Assembly: GCF_000591035.1 (NCBI RefSeq)
Contig: NC_022521.1
Span: forward strand, 434,001-498,000
DNA: 64,000 nt
Reading direction: 5' to 3'
From: Aeropyrum camini SY1 = JCM 12091
Lineage (GTDB): Archaea > Thermoproteota > Thermoprotei_A > Sulfolobales > Acidilobaceae
The notes under the pieces were generated by a model, which saw only the letters and a list, made by a program, of their open reading frames with translations, ran no database searches and was not told the DNA's origin. Position numbers and translations under genes: made by a program. This document shows positions 16,838 through 23,214 of the stretch, one piece after another; the stretch's first letter is position 1; each line of letters opens with the position of its first letter.

Positions 16838-18220
16838 CTATTCCCGAGGGCCTAGGGGGCTCTGCTGGAGGCTAAAACTGTCTCCCACTGGAGGAGGCCT
16901 TGGTGGAGTGGGGTCTGGCGAGTACGCCCACAGAGCCTCTACGAGGCGGGGCGGCGTCCAGCGGGCAGGCCTCCTGCCTGGCGGGGCGACCAGGTGTCTA
17001 AGCCTCCCCTCCCTCGGCGTGTAGACGCCGGGCTGTAGAGCACGGGGCACGGGTGTCTCAATAGGTCTGGCGCTGGGAGAGGAGAAGCCGCAGCGGGGGC
17101 ACCTGTAGCCCCTCCCCCTCCCGGCGCTCTCCAACCTAGCCCCGCAGCGGGGGCATAGGGGGGAGTGCACCTCGATAACTGGGGATAGCCGCTTGACAGA
17201 CAGCTTGTCCACCGCAACCGTCCAGAGTCCGCGGGGCCTGTAGGGCCTCACGCTCCCCATAGCCTCCACAAGGTCGCCGGGCGCCAGGAGCCTAGCCACC
17301 TGGTTGAGAGGCGAGGCCTCCCTATAGAATACAAGGTCGACCTCGCCGCCGCCTGCTGATGCCCTCACCACCACGTGCCCCCCAGGCAGTGTTTGCGGGG
17401 TGCCGGCCACCACCGCCTCCAATGTTACATAGGAGTACGGGTAGACCCTCCTCTCCACCCCCCGGGGCGCGTCTGTGTGTTGGTTGCTGCGGTAGAGGAC
17501 CCAGAAGTGAGGCTCCTCGCAGAGCGCCTCAGAGTAGCGGTGGAGGAGGTGGGGGCAGTCGCCGCGGAACCCGGTTAGCACAGGATCCGGGCCTGCCGGG
17601 GCGGCTGCAACCCTCCCCCCAGCGATGTCTATGTTGTTGAACGTGCAGGGCGGTAGTGAGGCTTCAACCCTAGCAGCCGCCTCCCAATCCACGCACCTCC
17701 CCTTCCCCCACATCTCCGGTTTCCGGTAGGCCACTAGCTCCCAGGTATAGTCCTCCCCGGGCTTCAAGGCTGCGAGGGATGCGGATGCACCCACAACACC
17801 CCAGCCACCCCGAACCCAGCCCCCCTCCCTCTCCACAACAGCCACCGCGAAACCTCTATCCAGGACCCCTGCCAGGGCCCTCCTATACAGCTCCTCGAGG
17901 CTAGGTCTGAAGGGGTCTCCCACGAGGGCTGCCATACCAGGCCCCTTACCCGCCTCAGAGGGCCTCCCGCCAGTGTAGTCCCACATAAGCTGGACTGCAG
18001 TCTCGACGGCGTCTAGAGCCTCATCCTCACCCCTTGTCCATAGCCTTATCACCACTGAAGCATTGCCCCTAGTCTTCCAGGGTATGCCGGGGTTAAGCCT
18101 GACGAGTAGGGGGTAGTCCGCCAGTGTGTAGCGGCCGCGGGGTAGGAGGGTGTGTAGGAGGAGGCCTGCGAAGTGTGTTGTACATCCTCCCCCTCTAAAA
18201 TCGATATCGTCGAACGCCAT
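16838..18220 (-). CDS. tiaS: tRNA(Ile2) 2-agmatinylcytidine synthetase
   Basis: A 460-residue enzyme that converts C34 of tRNA-Ile(CAU) to agmatidine using agmatine and ATP, so that it reads AUA and not AUG. The N-terminal AFDDIDFRGGGCTTHFA matches the DDTD-type entry motif of TiaS. A central domain follows, then an OB-like segment and a C-terminal zinc ribbon with CPRCG and CPRCGF near residues 360 and 376. The usual DDTD reads DDID, a conservative change. The start is ATG directly after TGTTAAGT. The likely substrate, an intron-bearing CAU tRNA, is encoded at 4659-4770. Confidence 0.9.
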   Translation of the reverse strand: MAFDDIDFRGGGCTTHFAGLLLHTLLPRGRYTLADYPLLVRLNPGIPWKTRGNASVVIRLWTRGEDEALDAVETAVQLMWDYTGGRPSEAGKGPGMAALVGDPFRPSLEELYRRALAGVLDRGFAVAVVEREGGWVRGGWGVVGASASLAALKPGEDYTWELVAYRKPEMWGKGRCVDWEAAARVEASLPPCTFNNIDIAGGRVAAAPAGPDPVLTGFRGDCPHLLHRYSEALCEEPHFWVLYRSNQHTDAPRGVERRVYPYSYVTLEAVVAGTPQTLPGGHVVVRASAGGGEVDLVFYREASPLNQVARLLAPGDLVEAMGSVRPYRPRGLWTVAVDKLSVKRLSPVIEVHSPLCPRCGARLESAGRGRGYRCPRCGFSSPSARPIETPVPRALQPGVYTPREGRLRHLVAPPGRRPARWTPPRLVEALWAYSPDPTPPRPPPVGDSFSLQQSPLGPRE

Positions 18221-18266
18221 ACTTAACAGGAGGATGCCTGGCCCCCCCGCCCCGTCTTAGGAGGGG

Positions 18267-18530
18267 TTACCCCTTGTTCTTAACCCTCCTGGTCACTATA
18301 ACCATTGTGAGTGTCATCTTTACCCCGTCAATCTTCCTTATCTTACCCGTTATAGTCTCCCTCAGCTGGTCCATGGTTGGGGCCTCAACTAGGGCTATGA
18401 TATCGTATATCCCGTATACCATGAATACTTCCTTGACCTCCGGCATCTCCAGCAGCTTGTTAAACACTTCATCCTCCTTCCCGACGTCAACGTTGATAGC
18501 GACAAGCGCCTCCGGCATCTCGGGCACCAT
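18267..18530 (-). CDS. Stand-alone Lrp/AsnC effector-domain protein
   Basis: An 87-residue protein made only of the C-terminal ligand-binding (RAM) domain of Lrp/AsnC regulators. The sequence shows the alternating beta-alpha pattern with EALVAINVDVG, the VKEVFMVYGIYDIIALVEA core and TMVIVTRRV at the end. It lacks a helix-turn-helix, so it cannot bind DNA alone; family members form octamers that bind amino acids and may modulate full-length Lrp proteins. A TATA box centred about 18559 lies close to 27 bases before the ATG, pointing to a leaderless message. Confidence 0.88.
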   Translation of the reverse strand: MVPEMPEALVAINVDVGKEDEVFNKLLEMPEVKEVFMVYGIYDIIALVEAPTMDQLRETITGKIRKIDGVKMTLTMVIVTRRVKNKG

Positions 18531-18552
18531 ACACCATCTATTGAGCCGTTAC

Positions 18553-18570
18553 GGGTTTAAAACCTTATAG
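18553..18570. promoter_or_regulatory. Bidirectional TATA region between the RAM protein and the hisS cluster
   Basis: GGGTTTAAAACC (18553-18564) is nearly palindromic and can serve both strands, with a further CTTATAG at 18564-18570 toward the plus strand. On the minus strand its centre is about 27 bases from the RAM protein ATG. On the plus strand it would start transcripts near 18585-18595, ahead of the GTG at 18603. Confidence 0.55.
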
Positions 18571-18602
18571 CAACCATAAGTTGTGTTAGAAGCTGTGTAG
18601 AG

Positions 18603-18959
18603 GTGTGGCCTGTAGAAATGGATGAGGAAGCAGGAGGCGGGCAATGCTGTCTCGACCCCTCCATGTTCTCCCACAGGCAGGGTGACATAGCTAAGGCCCT
18701 CAGCCTAAACGATGAGGAGGCGGTGCGTGTGAAGAAGTATGTAGAGGACCCTCTCAAACAGCGTCCTCCGCCCAAGGTTAGCGAGGCCCTGGAGAGGATA
18801 TGGTCTAGGGACTGTGCTAGCCTATCCCTGAGGCAGAGGATCTACGCTACATTCATACTAGGGATTAGTATATACGGCAGCATAGTTCAAGAGTACCTCA
18901 TAAGGTCTATGAGTAGTATGGAGGCTAAGGGTGCCTCAGGTGGCGGGAGGTCGCCCTAG
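18603..18959 (+). CDS. Hypothetical protein upstream of hisS
   Basis: A 118-residue protein beginning at GTG 18603 after GAGGT. It is helical and charged, with a patch LSLRQRIYATFILGISIYGSIV (around residue 73) that could be a short amphipathic or membrane-associated helix, and two cysteines together near residue 15. No family is recognised. Its last 29 bases overlap the start of hisS, so the two are cotranscribed and translationally linked. The codon pattern and promoter placement support a real gene. Confidence 0.6.
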   Translation: MWPVEMDEEAGGGQCCLDPSMFSHRQGDIAKALSLNDEEAVRVKKYVEDPLKQRPPPKVSEALERIWSRDCASLSLRQRIYATFILGISIYGSIVQEYLIRSMSSMEAKGASGGGRSP

Positions 18960-20247
18960 GCCCCCCAGAGGCTTCAGAGACTTCCCCCCCGAAGTCATGA
19001 TACTCAGGAAGAGGCTGCTCTCCAGGCTTGAGAGGGTGTTCGAGAGCTACGGCTTCGACCCGCTCGACACCCCTGCTGTGGAGTACTGGGAGACCCTCTC
19101 GGGTAAGTATGGGGAGGAGGCGGAGGCCAGGCTCATATGGAGGTTCCAGGACCCGTGGAGCGGTAGGTGGTACGCGCTCAGGTACGACCTTACAGTCCCC
19201 CTAGCCAGGTTCGTCGCGTCTAACCCGGGGCTGCAGATGCCGTTCAAAAGGTATCATATAGGGAAGGTTTGGAGGCATGAGGAGCCCCAGAAGGGGAGGT
19301 ATAGGGAGTTCGTGCAGTGCGACGCCGACATAGTGGGCAGCCCGCACCCCGAGGCGGATGCCGAGGTTGTGAGCCTCGTGGTAGACAGTATGGAGGCCCT
19401 GGGGTTCAATGGTTTTAGGGTTAGGGTTAACGATAGGCGCCTCCTAGCAGGCATATTCGAGGAGGAGCTGAGCCTCGAGAACCCCCTGCCGATCTACAGG
19501 GCTATAGACAAGCTGGACAAGATAGGGGAGGAGGGTGTTAGGAGGGAGCTTGAGAAGCTGGGGCTAGCGGGCTCTACGGTAGCAAGGATTATGGAGATTA
19601 TCTCGTGGAGGGGGAGGCCCGGCGAGGTCCTAGAGTCCGCGGGGAGGGTTTACGGGTCTAACAGGAGGGTTAGGGAGGCTCTCGACCATCTGGAGGAGAT
19701 GCTATCCCTAGCCAGGGATAGTAGGGTTGAGCTAGACTTGAGCCTTGTCAGGGGGCTAGACTACTACACCGGGCCCATACTAGAGGTTGTCCTCGACGAG
19801 CCAAGGATAGGGAGTGTGGCCGGTGGAGGGAGGTACGACGGGTTGATAGGCATGTTCGCGGGCAGGGATATACCGGCAACCGGTGTCAGCATAGGTATAG
19901 AGAGGATTATAGACGCGGGCCTGGAGCTCGGCGTGTATAGCCTTGACGTGAAAACCGTCGCTCAGGTCGCAGTCGTCGTCCTTGACAGGAGCTACTACAG
20001 CTACGCCTGGGAGGCCGCCCGGCTTCTCAGGAAGGGAGGTTTCAACGTGAGGATAGACCTCTCCCGGGCCAGCGGACAGGTTCAGAGGAGGAAGGCATCG
20101 AGGCTTGGCATACCCGTGGTGGCGTTCGTGGGGGGTAAGGAGGCTGAGGGGGGCTTCCTAACACTATACAGCGCCGCGACGGGGGAGAGGGTTATGGTGC
20201 CCCTGATTGAGGCTGCCAAGGCTGTGGAGAGGCTTCTCCCCCGCTAG
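18931..20247 (+). CDS. hisS: Histidyl-tRNA synthetase
   Basis: A 438-residue class II synthetase that charges tRNA-His. Motif 1 follows PPRGFRDFPPE, motif 2 contains KRYHIGKVWRHEEPQKGRYREF near residue 105, and the histidine-specific loops are GLDYYTGPI near 267 and GGGRYDGLIG near 294, with motif 3 arginine in GVSIGIERI. The C-terminal anticodon-binding domain covers about the last 95 residues. It starts at GTG 18931 within the preceding gene. Its stop overlaps the end of the convergent SWIM gene. Confidence 0.95.
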   Translation: MPQVAGGRPRPPRGFRDFPPEVMILRKRLLSRLERVFESYGFDPLDTPAVEYWETLSGKYGEEAEARLIWRFQDPWSGRWYALRYDLTVPLARFVASNPGLQMPFKRYHIGKVWRHEEPQKGRYREFVQCDADIVGSPHPEADAEVVSLVVDSMEALGFNGFRVRVNDRRLLAGIFEEELSLENPLPIYRAIDKLDKIGEEGVRRELEKLGLAGSTVARIMEIISWRGRPGEVLESAGRVYGSNRRVREALDHLEEMLSLARDSRVELDLSLVRGLDYYTGPILEVVLDEPRIGSVAGGGRYDGLIGMFAGRDIPATGVSIGIERIIDAGLELGVYSLDVKTVAQVAVVVLDRSYYSYAWEAARLLRKGGFNVRIDLSRASGQVQRRKASRLGIPVVAFVGGKEAEGGFLTLYSAATGERVMVPLIEAAKAVERLLPR

Positions 20248-20603
20248 CCGCCTGAAGCCAGCCTCCTCCTAACAGTCACCGCCAGGCCTGAGGCGTAAAC
20301 CTCCATAACAACCCTCCCCACCTCCCTAGGCTCCATAGCAACCCTCCTGAACCTGCCGCTCGAGACTGCGGCCTTAAGCCCTCTCAAATGCTTGCACCCC
20401 CAGCCCCCCTTCAACAGGCTCCCCGCCATGCTGGGGCAGGAGCAGTATAGCCCCTCGACCAGAATATAGTCCCTCGACCCGCCCAGGTAGACCCAGACCC
20501 CCGTGGCACCGCCCGCCTCGAGCTTCACATACCTCCCGGAGAGGCCGAGGACCTCGTCGGGCTCGAGGGCCAGATACTCTAGGCAGGCGTCCCTCACCGA
20601 CAC
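20244..20603 (-). CDS. SWIM zinc-finger protein
   Basis: A 119-residue protein centred on a SWIM-type finger, CSCPSM followed after 13 residues by CKHLRGL (residues about 53-75), with pattern CxCxnCxH. SWIM domains bind nucleic acid or proteins and occur with recombination and repair factors in archaea and eukaryotes. Nothing else in the short sequence indicates an enzyme. It begins one base after the rpiA stop on the same strand, so the pair forms an operon. Its proximity to the putative replication origin (about 1 kb) may be chance. Confidence 0.8.
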   Translation of the reverse strand: MSVRDACLEYLALEPDEVLGLSGRYVKLEAGGATGVWVYLGGSRDYILVEGLYCSCPSMAGSLLKGGWGCKHLRGLKAAVSSGRFRRVAMEPREVGRVVMEVYASGLAVTVRRRLASGG

Positions 20604-20604
20604 G

Positions 20605-21357
20605 CTAAACCCCTCCCCTCCTGTAGGGGCCTAGAACCTTGTAGCCACAGCCTGAAAGACCTACTACAATGTAGTCGGCGAGCCCCAGGAAGAGGCCGGT
20701 CTCACGCACCCCCGGCACCATCCTGAGCGTCGACTCCAGATCCCGCGGATCCTCTATGGGCCCGGTGTGCAGGTCGACCAGCACACCGCCCCAGTCGCTA
20801 ACCACAGGCCCTCTCTTACCCTGCGAGGTCCTCAGCCGTGGTTTAAGCCCAAGCTCCTCAAGGCCCGCCAGCGCCATAGCGGCAAAGCCGGGCTCAACCT
20901 CCACGGGAATAGGCATCCTCTCCCCAAGCCTCCCCACCAGCTTGTCCTCACCAACTATGAATATGTTGAGCCTAGACCTGGAGGCAAGTATCTTCTCCCC
21001 CAGCAGAGCCCCCCCACCCCCCTTCACCATATACCCGCTTCCAGGCTCCACCTCGTCAGCCCCGTCGACATAAGCGTCAACCCCCCGGTATACGCGGGGG
21101 TCACCCACAGTCCACCCCAACCCGTAAACCGCGGCCCCCGTCTCAAAGCTGCTGGGCACAGCAACCCCCGGCTCCACCCCCGCGTCGACGGCCATGTGGA
21201 GGAACCTCAACACAGTCCTGCCACTACCCACACCGAGGACGCCGAGCTCAACGTCAAGCATGCGGAGAAGCTCCAGCGCCCCGCGGGAAGCCTCGGCCAT
21301 AGGGTCGCAGTCGCCCAATAGAGGCACCCACGGAAAACCTGTAGACACCGCACTCAA
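20605..21357 (-). CDS. rpiA: Ribose-5-phosphate isomerase A
   Basis: A 250-residue enzyme interconverting ribose 5-phosphate and ribulose 5-phosphate; in archaea it supplies PRPP for nucleotides. Signatures are GVGSGRTVLRFL near residue 42 (phosphate loop), DGADEVE near 95 (catalytic Asp/Glu) and VKGGGGALLGEK near 108 with the catalytic Lys. The RpiA loop is usually GxGTGST and here reads GVGSGRT. The predicted start is 41 bases from the first ORB-type repeat, so its promoter lies in the left part of the putative origin. Confidence 0.93.
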   Translation of the reverse strand: MSAVSTGFPWVPLLGDCDPMAEASRGALELLRMLDVELGVLGVGSGRTVLRFLHMAVDAGVEPGVAVPSSFETGAAVYGLGWTVGDPRVYRGVDAYVDGADEVEPGSGYMVKGGGGALLGEKILASRSRLNIFIVGEDKLVGRLGERMPIPVEVEPGFAAMALAGLEELGLKPRLRTSQGKRGPVVSDWGGVLVDLHTGPIEDPRDLESTLRMVPGVRETGLFLGLADYIVVGLSGCGYKVLGPYRRGGV

Positions 21358-21397: not shown

Positions 21398-21420
21398 TCT
21401 CCACAGGAAACCGAGGGGTC
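21398..21420 (+). repeat. ORB-like element 1
   Basis: Reads TCTCCACAGGAAACCGAGGG followed by GTC. It has the full dyad-like core CCACAGGAAAC and the G-string. It lies nearest to rpiA and is followed by a TATA-like CTTATAAACC. Confidence 0.85.
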
Positions 21421-21468
21421 CTTATAAACCCCGAGCATACAAAGCCAGCCCTCCGGAGGCTCGAGCCC

Positions 21469-21492
21469 CACACCCCACTGTTTCCCATGGAG
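21469..21492 (-). repeat. ORB-like element 2 (inverted)
   Basis: On the minus strand it starts CTCCATGGGAAACAGTGGGG, with the same core and G-string in the opposite direction to element 1. It is about 45 bases left of the AT-rich segment. Confidence 0.8.
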
Positions 21493-21534
21493 CGTCAGGA
21501 GAACTGGGCTCTCACAGCCTCTCCACGGATGCAC

Positions 21535-21593
21535 ATACAATATAATGATACAAAAACATTATATAGAAAAGATGATCAAAACAAACAGCGAAT
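21535..21593. other. AT-rich putative duplex-unwinding segment
   Basis: A 59-base stretch of strongly AT-rich DNA, with runs such as AATATAATGATAC and CATTATATAG, stands out from a GC-rich surrounding and lies between ORB-like elements 2 and 3. Its placement fits the site where origin DNA first melts. Confidence 0.7.
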
Positions 21594-21625
21594 CTCGTTT
21601 GAAACTAGACCCGCAGCCTCACACG

Positions 21626-21648
21626 ATCCACCGGAAGCCAGGGGGTGT
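21626..21648 (+). repeat. ORB-like element 3
   Basis: Reads ATCCACCGGAAGCCAGGGGG then TGT. It is the most divergent copy but keeps TCCAC, GGAA and the G-string at the same spacing. It lies just right of the AT-rich segment. Confidence 0.72.
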
Positions 21649-21675
21649 GGGGGGTGTTGTGAAGCGGCGTTGACT

Positions 21676-21698
21676 CTCCACAGGAAACTGAGGGGGTG
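21676..21698 (+). repeat. ORB-like element 4
   Basis: Reads CTCCACAGGAAACTGAGGGG then GTG, nearly identical to element 1 over the core. It lies between element 3 and the 3' end of rnpB. Confidence 0.85.
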
Positions 21699-21811
21699 TA
21701 TACTGGGGGGTTAACAGGGTAGAGCAGTACCCATCACACCTATCACAACTCACAACCCCAACACGGCCGAGGGCTGGGTATGGAGGTGCATCGGCGTGAT
21801 CCATGTTTACT

Positions 21812-22152
21812 GGAGGGCGGCGCCGGCCATAACCCGCCTTCTGTACTTCGGCGGCATTGGGCTTAGCGGTCTACCCCCCGGGCTTCGCGCGGCCCTCACC
21901 GCCCGGGGGCCTTGCTCCGCCGGGGGCGGCCGTTTCACCGCATCCCCGGGGTTCCTCTGCGGTTTGCTGCCGCCCTGTTGCCAGGGCGGCCTAGCCGCGT
22001 CCTCGACACGCCCCGGGGCCGTGTCGTTTCTGTGCCGTTGCCACGGGTTTCACCCGTGCCCCTTGCGGGGCCCGGCTGCCGCGGGGAGGGCGGAGTTTCC
22101 TCAGCCCCCGAGGGTATAGGGGACCGTGGGCCGCCGGCCAGCGCCGCCCCCG
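21812..22152 (-). ncRNA. rnpB: RNase P RNA
   Basis: On the minus strand the sequence has both universally conserved halves of the P4 core: GAGGAAACTCCGCC (complement of 22089-22102) near the 5' end, and AGTACAGAAGGCGGGTTATG (complement of 21829-21848) at the 3' end. The ends pair over 13 bases, GGCGGCGCTGGCC with GGCCGGCGCCGCC, forming P1. Several strong GC hairpins with GNRA-like loops lie between. The RNA is the catalytic part of the ribonucleoprotein that removes tRNA 5' leaders. Length of about 340 bases fits archaeal type A. Plus-strand open frames over it are spurious. A T-rich stretch at 22179-22190 may hold its promoter. Confidence 0.93.
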
Positions 22153-22209: not shown

Positions 22210-23214
22210 GTGCTTGTTAAGAAGTATCCCTTCCTCATAGGCCTTGAGAGGGCTTTGGAGCTTGTGGCGGGGTTTAGGGGTGAGGCTGCTAGGCGTGTTT
22301 TAGCTGGTGATGAGGATCTTGTTAGGCTTGGTTTTAGGAGGGCTGTGGCCGCTGTGGAGGGGTGGCTCGACTATCCTTTCGCCGATACTGTGGAGGGGGA
22401 GGTGGCTAGCTTTTACCTCGGGCTGGCTATAGCCTATAGGGCTGGCCCGGCTGCCGTGTCGAGGGTTGTGGCCGGCGAGTCTTCAAGGGCTGCGAGGCTG
22501 GTGGCTGGCGAGCCTGGGGAGGTTGCAGCCAGTATACTCGGGGGGCTGGGGTTTCCTGTTGAGAGGGGCGGCTTGAATATTCCATGGGTTGTTGATAGGC
22601 GCGGGGTTGTCACCCTCCCTCTCGGCTGGAGGATGGGTGTTGACGTTTTCCTGAGGCTCTCCGCAGCTGACGAGCATGCTCCGGAGCTGAGGCTCGCCAA
22701 CCAGATGCTGCTCTCGGGCGGCGTCTATCTGAGCGACGCTAGGCTGAGGGCTCTAGCCTCCGCAGCCTCGAGGCTGGCTATAGAGGGGAGGGTGTCTGAG
22801 GCCAGCTCCCTCGAGTCGGAGGCTATCGAGAGGTATGCCAGGCACCTGGCGGCCCTCGCCGAGGGGGGGCTGCCGTTCGTGCCGGAGGCGCTGCCCGCCT
22901 GCGTGAAGGAGGTTCTCGGGAAGGCTGTGAGGGGGGTTAGGCTCGGGTGGCTGGAGCTCTACCTGGCCCTGGTATTCCTCGCCAGGATTAGGGCGGGGCC
23001 GGAGGTGGTGGCTGAGGTCCTCTCTCCCAGCATCGGCAGGGGGGCTGCCAGGGCGTTGGCCAGGGTGTACGGCCAGTCACCACCCACTGACCACAGGCTA
23101 CCCCCCTGCGAGGTCCTCGCAGCCTCGGGCGTCTGCAGGTGCCGTGGCAGCCTGCTGGCCGAGTATAGGCAGAGGGTGAGGAGCTATCTAGGGTTGCCGG
23201 TGGTTAGCAGATAA
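22210..23214 (+). CDS. priL: DNA primase large subunit
   Basis: A 334-residue protein from GTG 22210, preceded by GGTGGT; longer versions would run into the RNase P RNA gene. PriL regulates the catalytic PriS subunit and contributes to primer length and hand-over. The C-terminal part has a Cys in LPACVKEVL near residue 234 and then PPCEVL and CRC near 305-316, the four cysteines that hold the 4Fe-4S cluster in archaeal and eukaryotic PriL. The N-terminal half is helical as expected. It lies about 0.5 kb from the putative replication origin; PriS is not in the window. Confidence 0.88.
   Translation: MLVKKYPFLIGLERALELVAGFRGEAARRVLAGDEDLVRLGFRRAVAAVEGWLDYPFADTVEGEVASFYLGLAIAYRAGPAAVSRVVAGESSRAARLVAGEPGEVAASILGGLGFPVERGGLNIPWVVDRRGVVTLPLGWRMGVDVFLRLSAADEHAPELRLANQMLLSGGVYLSDARLRALASAASRLAIEGRVSEASSLESEAIERYARHLAALAEGGLPFVPEALPACVKEVLGKAVRGVRLGWLELYLALVFLARIRAGPEVVAEVLSPSIGRGAARALARVYGQSPPTDHRLPPCEVLAASGVCRCRGSLLAEYRQRVRSYLGLPVVSR

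Follow-up and report, generated by a model that had tools for sequence, protein, structure and literature searches.

The window, the whole 64-kb stretch of DNA analysed here (positions 434,001-498,000 of a 1,595,994-base contig), contains a gene-free gap of 460 bases between rpiA, which ends at 21357 on the minus strand, and the RNase P RNA gene, which starts at 21818. Four sites of the origin recognition box (ORB) type were found in this gap, three direct and one inverted; ORB2 and ORB3 flank an AT-rich block. The features, in window coordinates, are as follows.

20605..21357, minus strand: rpiA, ribose-5-phosphate isomerase A, flanking gene and conserved origin neighbour
21398-21716: segment assigned to oriC1
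21398..21433, plus strand: ORB1, TCTCCACAGGAAACCGAGGGGTCCTTATAAACCCCG; identity to A. pernix ORB1 33/36
21458..21493, minus strand: ORB2, inverted, GCTCCATGGGAAACAGTGGGGTGTGGGG...; same orientation in A. pernix
21534..21592, no strand: AT-rich segment, presumed duplex unwinding element (DUE), 76% A+T
21538..21557, plus strand: central 20-mer CAATATAATGATACAAAAAC, containing ATGATACAAAA; candidate ucm motif
21625..21660, plus strand: ORB3, GATCCACCGGAAGCCAGGGGGTGTGGGGGGTG...; identity to A. pernix 30/36
21675..21710, plus strand: ORB4, TCTCCACAGGAAACTGAGGGGGTGTATACTGGGGGG; identity to A. pernix 32/36
21699..21716, plus strand: element outboard of ORB4, TATACTGGGGGGTTAACA
21818..22146, minus strand: RNase P RNA gene, the other flank

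The original prediction described four copies of one repeat. Four ORB-type sites are indeed present, but the wording slightly overstated their uniformity; only two of the four cores, those at 21399 and 21676, are perfect copies of CTCCACnGGAAAC (both read CTCCACAGGAAAC). The inverted core, CTCCATGGGAAAC, has one mismatch and the third core, ATCCACCGGAAGC, has two. The cores lie at 21399-21411 (plus), 21480-21492 (minus), 21626-21638 (plus) and 21676-21688 (plus), and each is followed at constant spacing by a G-string (GGGG or longer). The remainder of the predicted layout was recovered as described: a G-run beside each repeat, one inverted copy on the left (21480-21492), two repeats on either side of a 59-base AT-rich stretch (21534-21592) and a gap without a gene. 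The A+T content of this stretch is 76% vs 40% across the window, and the best 59-base AT-rich stretch there is beaten at just two other start positions in the 64 kb. An AT-rich region flanked on each side by a pair of ORBs is the arrangement of an Aeropyrum oriC1. On the minus strand, a TATA-like TTTATAAGG (21419-21432) overlaps the G-string of ORB1 and faces rpiA; binding of Orc1-1 at ORB1 could influence rpiA transcription.

Orthology to the A. pernix origin and GC skew

Comparison with a same-genus genome (G027; 1,669,696 bases) identified homologous DNA at 444,914-445,237 (E 5.4e-34). The published A. pernix Ori1 spans 444,909-445,231; its four ORBs are bound by Orc1-1, and this binding renders the AT-rich DNA separating ORB2 from ORB3 sensitive to P1 nuclease (PMC8287685). 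The agreement between the two intervals fits G027 being A. pernix K1 and indicated that the window carries the Aeropyrum orthologue of oriC1. The similarly designed Aeropyrum origin from the literature that the original prediction mentioned thus corresponds to this site by both position and sequence. In the alignment, the four ORBs are kept with order and orientation unchanged, and ORB1 to ORB4 share 33, 25, 30 and 32 of 36 bases with their A. pernix counterparts. ORB2 and ORB3 deviate from the consensus, and the same deviation is found in A. pernix. Identity is 71% in the DUE and falls to 29-50% in the spacers. All 20 bases of CAATATAATGATACAAAAAC are unchanged in A. pernix, and this 20-mer has a single occurrence per genome, even with 3 mismatches allowed. 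Both genomes have the gene order tiaS, Lrp, hisS, rpiA, ori, RNase P RNA, priL-like, tRNA-Leu, tenA. Marker-frequency analysis found both A. pernix origins to be active and no others (PMC10769869), and an in vivo replication start at the A. pernix origin was also shown in PMC4010727.

A turnover of GC skew had been proposed as a check on the site. GC skew within the 64-kb window alone was too noisy to decide, and 400 kb (255,001-655,000) were therefore analysed. The raw cumulative minimum fell at 455,632, inside the cluster, and its position remained in the cluster in 8/8 sub-ranges; the minimum of the detrended skew depended on the range chosen, shifting by as much as about 10 kb. Mean G minus C per kb was -23.5 over the left 200 kb and +12.7 over the right. 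In block shuffles, a minimum equally deep was obtained in 0.2-1.75% of cases, and one equally deep and close in 0.05% or fewer. AT skew and purine skew had no clear turnover at the site.

Based on these sequence comparisons, the segment 21398-21716 is almost certainly oriC1, one chromosomal replication origin in this genome, orthologous to A. pernix oriC1. The origin is real and well explained; it is not new but the counterpart of an experimentally proven A. pernix origin, and the copy in this species probably fires as well. That the segment could be an inactive relic of an origin still firing in A. pernix but lost here is very improbable: sequence conservation in all four ORBs and in the central 20-mer exceeds that of the spacers, and the GC-skew turnover lies exactly at the cluster. 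A. pernix K1 oriC1 (Ori1) was reportedly described by Grainge et al. in 2006 and by Robinson and Bell in 2007; a 2007 PNAS paper is said to have defined A. pernix oriC2 and ucm.

Conservation and neighbours of the repeat cluster

Of 48 family genomes searched with an ORB pattern, 29 gave matches, and 23 loci from relatives were examined (L115-L117, L122-L141). In every one of them, rpiA and/or tiaS is found no more than about 1 kb from the ORB cluster. Most relatives have the order Lrp-tiaS-ori-rpiA, vs tiaS-Lrp-hisS-rpiA-ori-RNase P RNA-priL here (16838-21357 compared with L123, L124 and L128); the gene order around oriC1 is thus rearranged in Aeropyrum, which places the origin at a breakpoint. 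The RNase P RNA gene was discarded as a general origin neighbour, being found in this position only in the Aeropyrum genomes (G000, which is this genome, G027 and G069) among those scanned. Many relatives carry a near-palindrome, GTTAACCGGGGnGTTAACA, on the outer side of ORB4, in the same place as TATACTGGGGGGTTAACA here. A search for plasmid relatives of the origin returned none.

The repeats could also be read as transcription factor operators for rpiA and the RNase P RNA gene, and not as an origin. They do lie in the upstream region of rpiA, and ORB1 overlaps the TATA-like element facing that gene, but the site is orthologous in position and sequence to a proven origin, the skew minimum falls within it, and in several relatives rpiA is 3-7 kb off while the cluster still keeps its ORBs. 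We consider this reading highly unlikely, although control of the rpiA promoter may be an alternative or added role of the cluster.

The pattern TCCNNNGGAANNNNNGGGG has four matches genome-wide (1,595,994 bases), all within these 300 bases, and in G027 four of its five matches lie at the homologous place; read backwards, it has 6 matches in this genome and 5 in G027. Since TCCNNNGGAANNNNNGGGG was drawn from these very sites, two independent tests were added. With the Ori-Finder 2 consensus and 3 or fewer mismatches, only ORB1 matched genome-wide here, and ORB1 and ORB4 matched in G027. A weight matrix built solely from ORBs of other genomes was used to scan 400 kb and ranked the four sites 1-4 (31.1, 29.9, 22.9 and 19.3 bits), the next-best score being 14.6 bits, 4.7 bits lower. 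That the G-rich repeats of this G+C-rich gap cluster by chance, a reading favoured by the further G-runs present there, has a negligible probability, as all four genome-wide pattern matches fall inside 300 bases, the cluster is conserved in 23 relatives and the independent matrix ranking also refutes it.

Adjoining the origin, 22216-23214 encodes a divergent DNA primase large subunit (PriL) that is missed by Pfam. NCBIfam PriL models gave E-values of 1.8e-7, 6.9e-9 and 1.3e-8 for three orthologues, in every case falling well short of the curated cut-offs. The Pfam model, which misses the gene described here, also detected no PriL elsewhere in the genome.

Initiator genes and their distance from the origin

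The genome contains two orc1/cdc6 genes, at about 121 kb and 332.7 kb. Both lie outside the window (434-498 kb), in agreement with the predicted lack of a cdc6 gene there. A third cdc6 candidate at 233 kb (233163-233345) was rejected and is a TIP49/RuvB-like ATPase instead; the Cdc6_lid Pfam model exceeds its cut-off on this ATPase, a trap when counting cdc6 genes. The orc1-1 gene, at 332.7 kb, is not adjacent to the origin but 122 kb distant. An origin apart from its initiator, as originally proposed, is therefore what the genome holds; this is not new and was already known for A. pernix, in which neither cdc6 gene adjoins the origins (review, PMC5333045). An orc1/cdc6 gene beside the origin is frequent, though not universal, among archaeal chromosomal origins; because orc1 is non-adjacent in A. 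pernix as well, adjacency is not a defining feature of the Aeropyrum oriC1 type. No orc1 gene was detected by tblastn near the relatives' clusters (23 loci; flanks of about 8 kb, less at contig ends), indicating that the separation of oriC1 and orc1-1 is a family trait and not peculiar to this window. Where both share a contig, the distance between orc1-1 and the cluster ranges from about 14 kb to 390 kb. An origin apart from orc1-1 appears to be the family rule.

The Orc1-1 product matches 2V1U chain A, the A. pernix Orc1 structure (E 7.6e-238), with zero differences across chain residues 310-387 (the end of the chain), within the winged-helix region, and is about 96% identical to the G027 (A. 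pernix) protein. The genome hence encodes an Orc1-1 with a conserved DNA-binding surface. The second orc1 product (about 121 kb) matches 1W5S, Orc2. According to reviews, the A. pernix structure is that of Cdc6-1 bound to oriC1. Because Orc1-1 is so near to the A. pernix oriC1-binding protein, we can safely infer that it would bind the four ORBs here.

An ORB3-like site, GATCCACAGGAAAACA, lies upstream of orc1-1 at 332786-332801, about 103 bases before the first conserved codons of that gene (LLPDYVP). The pattern GATCCA[CA/GC]GGAAAACA is found upstream of orc1-1 in three Aeropyrum genomes, namely this one, A. pernix and one other; in this genome and A. pernix, it occurs only at ORB3 and upstream of orc1-1. 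Likewise, GATCCANNGGAARNCA occurs twice here and twice in G027 (ORB3 and upstream of orc1-1). The upstream copy of A. pernix (G027), GATCCAGCGGAAAACA, equals its ORB3 in all 16 bases, and the upstream stretch in G027 is non-coding in the orc1-1 frame because a TAG comes after it. This distribution suggests that Orc1-1 binds near its own promoter, and the ORB3-like site is possibly an autoregulatory site or an origin relic. We propose only tentatively, and with more doubt than confidence, that origin and initiator have long been stably separated in the family, with this site bridging the two through control of orc1-1 by its own product. The upstream orc1-1 site and the divergent priL are the only new leads, and the upstream site merits a bench test.

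Proposed mechanism and comparison with known origins

Orc1-1 would occupy the four ORBs via its winged helix and AAA+ domain, with a defined polarity. The inner pair, ORB2 and ORB3, would face the AT-rich block, which would melt and take up MCM; the MCM would be loaded into the DUE by Orc1-1 bound on either side of it, at ORB2 and ORB3 (PMC12141716), and two forks would then depart in opposite directions. The MCM-loading steps are transferred to this site from Sulfolobus work. Inside the DUE, ATGATACAAAA is the conserved counterpart of ATTATACAAAC in relatives. The ucm is common to Sulfolobus and A. pernix origins and is bound by UBP in Sulfolobus (PMC12141716). The conserved ATTATACAAAC-like motif is a candidate for this 11-base ucm and probably represents it.

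With this analysis, one origin is placed on the chromosome of a second Aeropyrum species. Comparison of the two copies also marks the constrained letters of A. pernix oriC1, namely the four ORBs, the central 20-mer and the GTTAAC element outboard of ORB4. The rpiA/tiaS neighbourhood provides a simple oriC1 finder where orc1-1 gives no marker.

The origin resembles A. pernix K1 oriC1 in its place in the genome, its neighbours, its four ORBs and their orientations, the AT-rich block between ORB2 and ORB3, the lack of an orc1 gene nearby and a near-identical Orc1-1. It differs by point differences in each ORB, by diverged spacers and by a DUE that is about 3 bases shorter here in the alignment; A. 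pernix K1 oriC1 is proven by experiment, whereas the copy described here is known from sequence. Sulfolobus oriC1, characterised by ORB1-3, ucm and UBP (PMC12141716), similarly has ORBs around an AT-rich DUE, a short conserved central motif and Orc1-1 as initiator, but its ORBs number three, compared with four here, and it shows linkage to orc1-1/cdc6-1 (PMC3718332), whereas the two are 122 kb apart in this genome. The archaeal ORB consensus of Ori-Finder 2, TCCA[CG]T[TG]GAAA[TC][GA]AAGGGGT (PMC4164010), shares with the sites described here an equally spaced TCCA, GAAAC and GGGGT, whereas ORB2 to ORB4 depart from this general consensus by more than 3 mismatches.
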